Assembly (NCBI RefSeq): GCF_012027635.1
Contig: NZ_SNUS01000001.1
Span: 1,426,001 to 1,490,000 of the forward strand
Direction of reading: 5' to 3'
DNA length: 64,000 nucleotides
Source of the DNA: Thermococcus sp. 21S9
GTDB lineage: Archaea > Methanobacteriota_B > Thermococci > Thermococcales > Thermococcaceae
Part shown: positions 37,977 through 40,776 of the stretch, one piece after another
How positions within the stretch are numbered: position 1 is the stretch's first letter
Layout of the letters: each line of letters begins with the position of its first letter
Made by a program: the position numbers and the translations under genes
Notes under the pieces: generated by a model
Database searches by the model: none
What the model was told of the DNA's origin: nothing
Seen by the model: the letters and a program-made list of their open reading frames with translations, nothing else

Positions 37977-38027
37977 CCTCTCACCTTAGACCCCTTGTCG
38001 GGCCAACTTTTAAACCTACCCTCGCTA

Positions 38028-38060
38028 AGCTTTTTATATTACCCCGAGAAATTCGGGGCA
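38028..38060 (+). promoter_or_regulatory. Promoter with dyad operator-like element
   Basis: GCTTTTTATATTACC (TATA centred near 38036) is followed at once by a perfect dyad CCCCGA-GAAAT-TCGGGG (38042-38058), lying between TATA and the expected start near 38062. A repressor bound here would block polymerase; if transcription starts earlier the dyad would be a leader hairpin. GGTGAT (38061-38066) precedes ATG 38070. Confidence 0.5.
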
Positions 38061-38069
38061 GGTGATTGC

Positions 38070-38876
38070 ATGGAGATTGGGGTGACAATATATCCCCATT
38101 TCGTTACGAAGGACAAGAGCCTCGCGTCAATCCTGGCGGACGTCAAGATTAAGGACTACGACTTCGTTTCAATCTTCCCGCACACGCTCGGGCTAATCAA
38201 GAACGGTCTCGTCGTCGAGAAGAAGCTCAGGAACATCGAGACGACCCTTAGGGGAGTTGGAATAAGCTACATCGTCAGGATGCCGACGTCGGTCAACCTG
38301 CGCGACCACATCTACTACACACGCCACTTCCGCGTCGCCAAGGCCGTCGCCGATGTTGCAATCAAGCTCGGCGCCAAGGTAATCGTCATGCAGAGCGGTA
38401 GAACCGGAAGGCTCGACCTCGAAATCGAGGCCATACAGCAGTTAGCTGATATGGTCGGGCCCTTTGGTATAAAGATAGCCCTCGAAAACACCTTCAGCGT
38501 CAAGGACACGCTCTACGTTGTGGACAACGTTGACAGGGAGAACGTCGGCTTCGCCCTTGACGTGGCCCACGCCTTCCTCAGCGCCCAGGGTAACGAGGAG
38601 AAGCTCCTTGAGGACGTCAAGCTCGGCACCGACAAGACGGTAATCCTGATGATACACGACAACTTCGGAAAGCTCTTCCCGCAGGTCGAGCCAGAAGATG
38701 CCCTCGCCTACGGTGTCGGCGACCTCCACCTGCTCCCCGGAGAAGGCAAGATACCCTTCGGCAAGGTTCTCCGCCTGTTTGGCGATGTCCCACTGCTCCT
38801 GAAGGTCAAGGACCCGGACAAGTTCGTCAAGATACCGAGCAAGCAGGGGCTGATAGAGCTCCTTACGAGTCTCTGA
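38070..38876 (+). CDS. Xylose isomerase-like TIM-barrel protein
   Basis: 268 residues of the AP endonuclease 2/sugar isomerase-like fold. Metal-ligand candidates: Glu in KIALENTFSV, Asp/His in FALDVAHAFL, His in ILMIHDNFG, and HLLPGEGKIPF near the C terminus, matching the family's barrel pattern. Whether it is a sugar phosphate isomerase/epimerase or a nuclease relative cannot be decided. A longer in-frame extension to 37995 is rejected as it spans the promoter. Confidence 0.8.
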   Translation: MEIGVTIYPHFVTKDKSLASILADVKIKDYDFVSIFPHTLGLIKNGLVVEKKLRNIETTLRGVGISYIVRMPTSVNLRDHIYYTRHFRVAKAVADVAIKLGAKVIVMQSGRTGRLDLEIEAIQQLADMVGPFGIKIALENTFSVKDTLYVVDNVDRENVGFALDVAHAFLSAQGNEEKLLEDVKLGTDKTVILMIHDNFGKLFPQVEPEDALAYGVGDLHLLPGEGKIPFGKVLRLFGDVPLLLKVKDPDKFVKIPSKQGLIELLTSL

Positions 38877-38878
38877 TT

Positions 38879-39283
38879 TTAAACTCCTATCCTCTTCCCT
38901 ATCTCCCCGTAGAGAACTGCGAGGGCCTTTCCTATTGCCTCTTTCTTTCTCGTGAAGTGGGTAACGTCGTCGCTCAGGTTCTCGCGGATTAGCTTGACGG
39001 CTTCTTCAATCGTTATCAGCCCTTCGAGCCACGCGTAGGCGAATATGGCCTCGGCAACGTCGCCCCTCGCGTGCTTGTCGCTCCTTGGCGGGGCGAGTCT
39101 CCTTAGACCGGACATCTCAAGGGCTATACTTAAAGAAGCGTTCGGAACCCTCTCCCCGGTCGGCCTTCCGAGGTACTCGCTCAGGGCAAGGGAGAAGACG
39201 AAGTTGAGGAGAGAATCGCCGAATTTGGCGAGCCCCTTGTCGGTGAAGTCCTTAGGATAGGGAAAAGGGGCCAAGGGCTTCAC
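38879..39283 (-). CDS. RNase III-fold protein, Mini-III-like
   Basis: 134 residues with the two RNase III signatures and nothing else: [22 protein letters not shown] (equivalent to the LEFLGDxxL box) and [16 protein letters not shown] (equivalent to the second acidic box). The first Glu of the classical signature is Ala, as in bacterial Mini-III, and there is no double-stranded RNA-binding domain. It ends the csl4-DUF2067-rpoL operon (ATGA overlap with rpoL), so a role in RNA processing with the exosome is attractive but untested. Confidence 0.75.
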
Positions 39284-39567
39284 CCTTCGAGGGCCTTCTT
39301 CCAGGCGTCGAGAAGAACCCTCGCGCGGTCGAATATCTTCTGCGCGGCCTCCTCAAGGACTTCCTCGGGCTTGACCTTGCCGTCGGTAACGACCTTGAAG
39401 CGAGGTTTTCTGGCCATCAGAACGGGGTGCTCGATGGTGTAACCGGCGAACTTGACGTGCTCGTTCTCGTGGAGCACCTCGTTGAGCAGGTTGGCGAAGG
39501 TGTGGTCCTCTCCTTCAAGATAGAACTCCAGCAGGTTCTCCTCGCGCTTTATAACCTCAATCCTCAT
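39280..39567 (-). CDS. rpoL: DNA-directed RNA polymerase subunit L (Rpb11-like)
   Basis: Assembly-platform subunit pairing with RpoD. 95 residues with the Rpb11/RpoL motif [20 protein letters not shown] and [19 protein letters not shown] selects ATG 39567. It overlaps DUF2067 by 11 bp and the RNase III-like gene by 4 bp. Confidence 0.95.
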
Positions 39568-40186
39568 CAGCATCACCCGATAAAGCTTTCAACAGCTCTT
39601 CTAAGGCCTGCTCCTTGTTCTTGACCAGTTCGTATTTAAACTTATCCTCCTTCCACTCCGCCAGGCCGAGCTCGACCAGCTTTTCTATCACCTCGTCGGG
39701 CTCAAGGTTGAAGGCGACGCTGACCGGAACCACTACTTCTCTAATCTGCCTCGTCGTCTGAAGGGCTATCTCCGAAAGGGCCTCGCCGAGCTTTCTCACG
39801 AGTTCAACAGCCTCGCCCCAGGGGAGGGAAGTTACGAGCTCATTATCCCTCAGCTCCGCCGTTTCGCCGAGGAGCTCAAAGGCCTTGAGGATTATCGGCG
39901 TTGATACGCTCGTTCCGGCCTCGCGCAGGAGGTCGTCTATCGTGTAGTGGTAGAGCCCGCGCCTGTCAGGGTAGAGCTTGGCCCTTACGCGGTTGTGAAT
40001 CTCGCGTATCTTTCTTATGGCTTCTCTAATGTCGTCCTTCGTTCCCTGGACGTTTATCTTGATGGAGTCGAGCTTGCCGTGGACGTAGATGAAAGCCGGC
40101 AGGCGGAGCCTCTGGAGCTCTTTCATGAACTCCTCCTTTTCCACGTCGCTCTTGACGTGAATCGTTATTACCTTCTTGGCCCTCAT
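39557..40186 (-). CDS. DUF2067 family protein
   Basis: 209-residue archaeal protein of DUF2067. The N terminus resembles an RNA-binding ferredoxin-like fold ([37 protein letters not shown]), followed by helical and winged-helix-like parts ([40 protein letters not shown]). It sits between csl4 and rpoL with ATGA-type overlaps, which suggests RNA metabolism. Function is not established. Confidence 0.8.
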
Positions 40187-40776
40187 AGAGACACCTTCAT
40201 CTTCCTGTAGTAGGGCGAGAGCTTCCTCGTCTCGACGTTTCCACAGCGCGGGCAGATTAACTTGTCCCCGCGCCTGATGAGGGGCGTTCTACAACGGGAG
40301 CAGAGGGCGTAAACGACGCCGAGGTCCTTTCCGCGGGTGGTGAGCTGTATCGGGCTCTTCTCGTTGGCTATAACCTTCGCCCTGACCACGTCGCCAATCT
40401 TGAATTCCTTTGTTATGTCCTCAACAAAACCTTCCTTGACTTGCGAGATGTGGATTCCAGCCAGTTTTGAAGTCGCTATCTCCCTGTCGTTCTCGCGACC
40501 CTCTATCTGAAGGAGCTGAACTATAACGGCCTGTGGCTTGACCTCTATGACCCTCGCCAGAACTATGTCCCCGACCTGCGGGAGGGGCGGGGTGTCGGTC
40601 ACGGGTTCGACGCTTATCTCCATTTTCTCCGGGTTGATTCTAACCTTGCCCGCTCTGGTTGCGTAGAGTTCGCCGTTCTCCTCTCTAACCCCCTCGCCGG
40701 GCATGAACTCTTCTATGACCCCGAGGTAATCTCCGGGGAGGACGAGGTCACCGTTTTTAACCTTCCTGTCTTCCAT
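40183..40776 (-). CDS. csl4: Exosome RNA-binding protein Csl4
   Basis: Cap subunit of the archaeal exosome (3'-5' RNA degradation). Order: N-terminal beta domain (NGDLVLPGDYLGVIEEFMPG), S1 RNA-binding domain (VGDIVLARVIEVKPQAVIVQ ... GDVVRAKVIANEKSPIQL), then a zinc ribbon (CSRCRTPLIRRGDKLICPRC). 197 residues. GGAGGTGAGGGG precedes the ATG. First gene of a four-gene operon. Confidence 0.95.
   Translation of the reverse strand: MEDRKVKNGDLVLPGDYLGVIEEFMPGEGVREENGELYATRAGKVRINPEKMEISVEPVTDTPPLPQVGDIVLARVIEVKPQAVIVQLLQIEGRENDREIATSKLAGIHISQVKEGFVEDITKEFKIGDVVRAKVIANEKSPIQLTTRGKDLGVVYALCSRCRTPLIRRGDKLICPRCGNVETRKLSPYYRKMKVSL

Follow-up and report, generated by a model that had tools for sequence, protein, structure and literature searches.

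A stand-alone RNase III-fold protein of the PF11469 family encoded beside rpoL and csl4 in Thermococcus, and its relation to Mini-III and class I RNase III

Mini-III (MrnC), a bare RNase III domain, acts together with uL3 to cut pre-23S rRNA in the 50S particle. In RNase III, D45 and E117 are the residues least dispensable for catalysis, and the enzyme classically leaves a 2-nt 3' overhang. Here we analyzed a 134-residue archaeal protein with a predicted RNase III fold, encoded in a 64,000-nucleotide stretch of Thermococcus sp. 21S9 DNA (contig NZ_SNUS01000001.1, positions 1,426,001 to 1,490,000; hereafter the window, from the 1.92-Mb genome G000), where its gene is chained by overlaps to csl4, a DUF2067 gene, and rpoL. 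The protein belongs to PF11469 (Ribonucleas_3_2), a family that already has a crystallographic entry in the PDB, 1ZTD. The Discussion of PMC7758197 describes RNase III as only sporadic in archaea, and S. acidocaldarius is stated in PMC12817955 to be without an RNase III homologue. According to PMC4571572, some mesophilic Euryarchaeota apparently acquired an RNase III by transfer, and that enzyme is not of the PF11469 family. In PMC8416519, arCOG05836 is a distant RNase III homologue cited as a landmark beside VARTIG islands; by name and clade fit, it is likely the same archaeal family as PF11469.

Family, fold, and putative active site

The window protein scored 193.4 bits against PF11469 (cut-off 25) and covered model positions 1-118 of 119. 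It had no further Pfam match at E <= 10; hence no double-stranded RNA-binding domain (dsRBD) was found, in agreement with the preliminary description of this DNA. A phmmer search of the PDB gave the 1ZTD chain as the sole relative at E <= 10 (E 2.4e-41). This entry, a Pyrococcus furiosus "hypothetical protein" with a structure from 2005, is 61% identical to the window protein by Foldseek and belongs to the same family with no difference in kind; the closest named relative, from Thermococcus sp., is 93% identical. The window protein is no new family, both PF11469 and the structure of one member being known already; the preliminary description had taken an archaeal counterpart of Mini-III linked to the exosome to be new. 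No paper characterizing a PF11469 protein was found in the open-access PMC literature.

The window protein was modeled with AlphaFold2 using 18 family sequences (predicted local distance difference test score, pLDDT, 94.2), and a Lokiarchaeal member was modeled on its own (pLDDT 92.4). VIA-align was used as a second look at the Foldseek candidates, with the tool's own caveat that Z values below 13 are possible by chance for helical proteins. The window model matched 1ZTD at Z 20.4, Aquifex RNase III at Z 8.9 (109 residues, 3.6 Å), human and mouse mitoribosomal large-subunit chains, which we take to be mL44, at Z 7.1-7.2, and Mini-III (4OUN and 6TNN) at Z 6.4 (93-94 residues). All matches above Z 5 were judged to be RNase III-type proteins, and the best row judged to lie outside the superfamily reached Z 4.3. 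The Lokiarchaeal model reproduced this order (1ZTD 18.6, Aquifex 8.9, Mini-III 6.5, first unrelated row 4.2). The match is convincing because the top rows are uniformly RNase III, a gap lies below them, and the motifs align. Pfam searches with 34 family members pointed the same way: PF00636, the class I RNase III family, was the second most frequent match after PF11469 (9 members at E <= 0.1, best 1.3e-4), and every other family matched one or two members. The PF00636 score stayed below the cut-off in the one member for which bits were shown (18.3 versus 27). On the basis of the model and of homology to 1ZTD, the predicted RNase III fold is close to certain. The fold proposed in the preliminary description thus stood up to structure comparison, whereas Mini-III did not prove to be the nearest structure, class I being closer.

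Residue conservation was counted in 125 distinct sequences, after duplicates were dropped from 144 aligned rows (L001-L143 and the window). Some of these sequences came from a scan for two motifs covering the D23 and D75/E78 stretches, of which a single match sufficed, and the conservation is biased to that extent. Gly22, Asp23, Asn27, Ser31, and Glu78 were invariant in all 125; position 69 was Asp in 103, position 75 was Asp or Asn (Table 1), and position 19 was Ala or Ser in 119. A subset of 62 distinct sequences was obtained purely by profile search; in it these five residues were again invariant, and Asp75 was present in every sequence. The pattern GDxxxNxxxS followed by [DN]xxE was also found in all 30 of the top-scoring Asgard sequences, 24 of which came from genomes not yet counted. 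When aligned with Aquifex RNase III, D23 fell on the Asp of the GD motif and D75/E78 fell on the GDVFEA motif; D44 and E110 are the residues mutated in Aquifex PDB titles. The place of the first catalytic Glu is taken by Ala19, and Ala also stands there in the Mini-III sequences of B. subtilis, B. cereus 1u61, and 2gsl. The earlier remarks that this Glu is missing as in Mini-III and that the remaining acidic residues should be conserved in orthologues were both supported. That D23 and E78 do not vary within the archaeal family speaks for an active enzyme, and we consider it probable, from these residues, that the protein is a nuclease.

Gene neighborhood and distribution

A scan of GTDB 220 with one genome per species and a required motif match gave 101 relatives, of which the best 80 were kept. 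In 73 of these 80 loci rpoL lay within 1.5 kb of the PF11469 gene, on the same strand in 58 and on the opposite strand in 15, and this linkage spanned Thermococci, Bathyarchaeia, Methanomethylicia, Hades-, Hydrotherm-, and Asgard archaea. The opposite-strand loci were all from Bathyarchaeota and stood tail to tail with rpoL, mostly at less than 50 nt; there, adjacency to rpoL survived the loss of co-transcription. The seven loci without rpoL comprised five of the Methanofastidiosum clade (two with less than 0.7 kb of upstream sequence) and two of Thermococcales, one with sequence beginning only 125 nt upstream. rpoL was present as well in all 30 of the highest-scoring Asgard loci (27 on the same strand, 3 on the opposite one), which were the top-scoring loci and not a random draw, six being from genomes among the 80. 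A tree of 78 of the best 80 loci, with many deep forks unresolved, clustered by lineage, with 13 label changes compared to a minimum of 10 and a shuffled mean of 38.4. The rpoL linkage together with the lineage-wise tree argues for an old housekeeping role.

In the window, the csl4-DUF2067-rpoL-nuclease-fold chain given in the preliminary description was confirmed by the gene calls, the four genes running head to tail with successive overlaps of 4, 20, and 4 nt. The arrangement is far from chance because the same neighbors recur across archaeal phyla. Neighbors were counted by clustering, with names taken from one representative per cluster, in 66 loci of other lineages (some genomes occurring twice); RpoL was found in 53, Csl4 in 52, a methyltransferase in 42, a diphthamide synthesis protein in 40, Endo_dU in 33, TFS in 29, PCNA in 26, Gins51 in 22, PriL in 20, L44e in 19, and PriS and aIF2-alpha in 17 each. 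Many TACK and Asgard loci have the gene flanked by rpoL on one side and by Endo_dU, TFS, PCNA, primase, or GINS genes on the other. An archaeal replication-translation gene context resembling this neighborhood is described in PMC2643942, the main text of which contains no occurrence of RNase III, csl4, or rpoL. We conclude that the linkage, old and strong as it is, concerns a large information-processing cluster and not just the exosome. The exosome link drawn earlier therefore stands as a real linkage to csl4 and rpoL, while a tie specific to the exosome is weaker, rpoL being the nearest constant neighbor. Neither the deep synteny nor the near-ubiquity in Asgard archaea was met in the open-access PMC papers found.

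Table 1. Features of the window (coordinates in window numbering) and loci with an inverted arrangement
Feature	Coordinates or loci	Strand	Remarks
csl4, archaeal exosome cap subunit	40183..40776	-	NCBIfam Csl4, E 1.9e-66
DUF2067 protein	39557..40186	-	PF09840, E 1.1e-50
rpoL, RNA polymerase subunit L	39280..39576	-	NCBIfam subunit L, E 3.1e-55
Stand-alone RNase III-fold protein, 134 residues, GTG start	38879..39283	-	PF11469 Ribonucleas_3_2, E 1.8e-57; 1ZTD homologue
Ala19 codon	39227..39229	-	Place of RNase III first catalytic Glu (E41); A 70, S 49, E 4, K 2 of 125
Asp23 codon	39215..39217	-	Equivalent of E. coli RNase III D45 and Aquifex D44; invariant, 125/125
Asp75 codon	39059..39061	-	Equivalent of E. 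coli D114; D 113, N 12 of 125
Glu78 codon	39050..39052	-	Equivalent of E. coli E117 and Aquifex E110; invariant, 125/125
Inverted Bathyarchaeota loci	L095, L098-L100, L102, L104-L107, L111, L114, L115, L126, L133, L138		

The chain is flanked by a TIM-barrel gene (37995-38876, + strand), the end of which lies 2 nt from the stop of the RNase III-fold gene, and by thrS (40876, + strand), which is divergent from csl4. Scans with bacterial models, which are not meaningful for an archaeon, gave one promoter-like site (0.5 in shuffles) and three terminator-like sites (3.0 in shuffles). The DUF2067 protein showed a sub-threshold likeness to a KH domain (PARP14 KH model, E 0.048); where seen, in loci of the window's phylum, its gene follows csl4 just upstream of rpoL, and it was undetected in many lineages. 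In six Thermococcus-related loci (L041, L042, L062, L063, L066, and L085) a membrane-protein-like open reading frame (ORF) of 360-460 codons stands between rpoL and the RNase III-fold gene. In the Methanofastidiosum family (L045, L046, L054-L057, and related loci) neither rpoL nor csl4 was in the fetched stretch, and a gene clustering with Endo_dU (PF01949) follows.

PF11469 was detected in 106 of 115 genomes of the window's phylum, in 171 of 195 sampled Asgard genomes, and in 105 of 398 sampled Thermoproteota, with matches in 0 of 14 control genomes. The Asgard count was obtained with a clean profile (A3); an earlier profile (A2), which contained a NUDIX tail from a fused protein, gave 184 of 195. 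The Thermoproteota count is 120 less 15 matches that were NUDIX-only by model range and were removed by hand. The fused protein (L109:3090-4043, from a Hydrothermarchaeota metagenome-assembled genome, MAG) is an in-frame fusion with a NUDIX hydrolase (PF11469 E 5.4e-24, PF00293 E 1.8e-22), and in L124 and L140 the downstream ORF clusters with it and is presumably NUDIX too. By title, the best 80 of the 101 GTDB relatives were Thermococci, Bathyarchaeota, Methanomethylicota, Culexarchaea, and Odin-, Baldr-, Loki-, Heimdall-, and Freyarchaeota, among others, and further included Hades-, Hydrotherm-, and Theionarchaea, Methanofastidiosa, one Thermofilum, one Asgard-group, one Euryarchaeota, and two Methanomicrobia MAGs. 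Save for these last two, which group with Thermococci-class MAGs in the gene tree, none of the best 80 was titled Halobacteriota, Methanobacteriales, Methanococcales, Thermoplasmatota, or DPANN, groups that were not searched directly and for which a motif scan proves no absence.

Within the window's phylum, canonical PF00636 matched 5 of the same 115 genomes and gave no match in the other 110; elsewhere it was found in 1 of 32 genomes that carry PF11469. Displacement of PF11469 by canonical RNase III was considered for families f3 and f4 of the class, where PF00636 was present in 3 of 4 genomes without PF11469 versus 2 of 11 with it (Fisher p 0.077, the genomes being close relatives). Two f4 genomes (L144 and L145) encode short PF00636 proteins with Arg in place of the first Glu, and a Lokiarchaeal genome encodes a separate RNase III-like protein of 245 residues (L148:1369-2106). 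PF11469 is a distinct RNase III-fold family that is widespread in the Thermococci phylum and in Asgard archaea; if active, it would be an indigenous archaeal RNase III.

Proposed role and candidate substrates

We favor, by a modest degree, a reading in which the PF11469 protein would be a small RNase III-superfamily endoribonuclease that depends on metal. By analogy with that superfamily it would act as a dimer of bare catalytic domains, and its substrate would be double-stranded or hairpin RNA. It would be made together with Csl4 and RpoL and would carry out a housekeeping RNA-processing step, most likely in the maturation of rRNA or other stable RNA, after which the exosome could remove the cut-off pieces. 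The scarcity of PF00636 in a phylum where PF11469 is widespread counts in its favor. That the substrate is structured RNA appears fairly likely; the assignment to stable-RNA or rRNA maturation, which comes from gene context, is tentative.

Several observations weigh against this reading. No biochemical data or activity for any PF11469 member was found in the open-access PMC literature, and it is possible that a protein that has lost the first Glu, and in 12 of 125 sequences carries Asn at position 75, is a non-cleaving member of the superfamily. Foldseek alone returned only 1ZTD at E <= 0.001 for both the window and the Lokiarchaeal models, and the PF11469 profile showed no significant similarity to small alignments of RNase III and Mini-III. 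The gene is probably dispensable in many archaea because no match was found in 293 of the 398 Thermoproteota genomes. Nor is the rpoL linkage complete: in the window's own phylum, the fetched stretch contained rpoL for 36 of 63 loci, namely 13 of the 30 that had 1.5-kb flanks and 23 of the 33 that had longer ones. Of the ten longer-flank loci in which it was missing, eight belonged to the Methanofastidiosum family and two to genus g3. Indeed, rpoL was not seen in the flanks of any of the eight g3 loci (seven genomes); from its likeness to 1ZTD we infer that g3 is Pyrococcus. The neighbors as a whole mix replication, transcription, and translation genes, with neither the exosome nor rRNA singled out.

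Helix 98 of 23S rRNA was considered as a candidate substrate in Thermococcales; as a substrate of the whole family it was rejected, since it does not track the gene. The 23S rRNA of P. furiosus is circularised and loses helix 98 (41 nt), with cuts at U2926/C2927 and A2967/C2968 and a 5'-phosphate shown at C2968; in that report (PMC7758197) the order of circularisation and helix 98 loss is not settled, and the excising enzyme is left open, an RNase III-domain protein being annotated in Pyrococcus. We mapped these cuts on a g3 locus (L189), in which the complement of the H98 probe was present and the U/C and A/C junctions were exactly 41 nt apart. The basal stem there consists of U2926-A2967 followed by seven pairs, and the mapped cuts predict a 3' overhang of 1 nt on the released hairpin. 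Against the classical 2 nt, one nucleotide of trimming would be needed; the cut geometry fits RNase III within 1 nt. A survey for helix 98 gave a sarcin-ricin loop (SRL) match in 60 of 97 genomes queried. Helix 98 was recovered from 48 of 48 Thermococcaceae loci as 24 distinct sequences. In each of them all eight pairs of the basal stem were standard, the U of the basal pair being fixed by the search pattern, and changes on both sides were seen at three pairs, one of them to G-U. Such compensated pairs (for example, in L189 and L226) look as if the helix were kept as a processing signal. One genome (G023) has two SRL-bearing rRNA places, L224 and L241, and in L224 a stretch of about 30 nt lying between the SRL and helix 98 is directly duplicated, which marks either a divergent copy or an assembly artefact.

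Outside Thermococcaceae, helix 98 and the gene were not matched to each other. A tiny helix 98 hairpin was found in five gene-bearing genomes of the Methanomethylicia group (L256, L258, L259, L261, and L262) and also in L255, L257, and L260. Thermoproteota without a gene match included eight with a helix of about 30-40 nt (L252-L254 and L267-L271) and four with almost no helix 98 (L263-L266). In the Methanofastidiosum family, two genomes without a gene match (G008 and G014; L219 and L223) have a helix 98 nearly as in the gene-bearing L217, L218, and L220-L222. Excision of helix 98 by the PF11469 protein in Thermococcales only is speculative, and we regard it as unlikely. A stronger candidate, although we put it at somewhat less than an even chance, is that FAU-1, or FAU-1 plus trimming, removes the helix instead: PMC7758197 cites Ikeda et al. 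2017 for a large-subunit (LSU) rRNA about 50 nt longer in a FAU-1 deletion, close to the length of H98. Against FAU-1, PMC7758197 finds the flanks of H98 not obviously similar to the 5S substrate of FAU-1, and the excised piece is a double-stranded hairpin of which one cut leaves a 5'-phosphate, as RNase III would. Since PF11469 is a single gene in the genetically tractable T. kodakarensis, it could help answer the question of PMC7758197 as to who removes helix 98. The most extended form of the proposal, in which PF11469 would be the ancestral archaeal RNase III, linked to rpoL and csl4 before the Thermococci, TACK, and Asgard lineages split, active in spite of the lost first Glu, and in Thermococcales excising helix 98 from circularised 23S rRNA at the LSU corner served by bacterial Mini-III, appears improbable as a whole.

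Two further alternatives bear on the protein itself. The gene order in TACK and Asgard loci would suit an enzyme that degrades duplex or antisense RNA, or a nuclease acting on RNA of replication or transcription intermediates, rather than an rRNA-processing enzyme, and the Endo_dU adjacency is kept in the Methanofastidiosum family, whose fetched stretches lacked rpoL. Such clusters mix replication, transcription, and translation genes (PMC2643942), and adjacency is weak evidence of substrate; we give this alternative about one chance in a few. Somewhat less probable still is a non-catalytic fold, that is, a dimer that binds double-stranded RNA or serves as a scaffold like the mitoribosomal mL44. 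The lost first Glu, the Asn at position 75 in some members, and the mitoribosomal chains among the structural matches are consistent with it, but D23 and E78, the counterparts of the residues most needed for catalysis, do not vary, and the GD and D/N..E motifs recur in the top Asgard sequences, most of them from further genomes.

Comparison with Mini-III and class I RNase III

The window protein resembles Mini-III (MrnC; 4OUN, 6TNN, 1U61, and 2GSL) in being a bare domain of similar size in which the first Glu is absent and the Asp and Glu are kept. It differs in signature residues and in that its fold is nearer to class I, and its profile similarity to Mini-III is not significant. In Mini-III, with the signature taken from three sequences, E27 and R31 stand at +4 and +8 from the Asp and T103 stands three before the Glu; the corresponding PF11469 residues are N27, S31, and D/N75. 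The hhalign comparisons used small alignments (three rows for Mini-III and four for class I), so that low figures mean "distant" and not "unrelated": PF11469 matched Mini-III at 1.6% over 24 columns, which is not significant; against class I the figure was 1.2%, the GD and DxxE motifs being in register within the 77 aligned columns. Between Mini-III and class I, recognition was mutual at 95%. Orthology to Mini-III was rejected on the signature residues, the order of fold similarity, and the non-significant profile similarity. The membership in Mini-III put forward in the preliminary description is accordingly not upheld, and a true archaeal MrnC that matures 23S rRNA ends is very improbable in spite of the shared size, the Ala at the first-Glu place, the GD...E core, the missing dsRBD, and the presence of Mini-III structures among the fold matches.

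Class I RNase III (PF00636; Aquifex 2NUG and 1JFZ) is the nearer relative by fold (Z 8.9 versus 6.4-6.5 for Mini-III) and has both motifs in register, and the Aquifex enzyme shares the Asn at +4 with PF11469. The family differs from class I in that no dsRBD was detected and in that the first Glu is replaced by Ala or Ser in most members; the class I acid set E41/D45/D114/E117 is incomplete, the E41 equivalent being Glu in only 4 of 125 sequences. PF11469 is best seen as a branch of its own within the RNase III superfamily, with two reductions in common with Mini-III.

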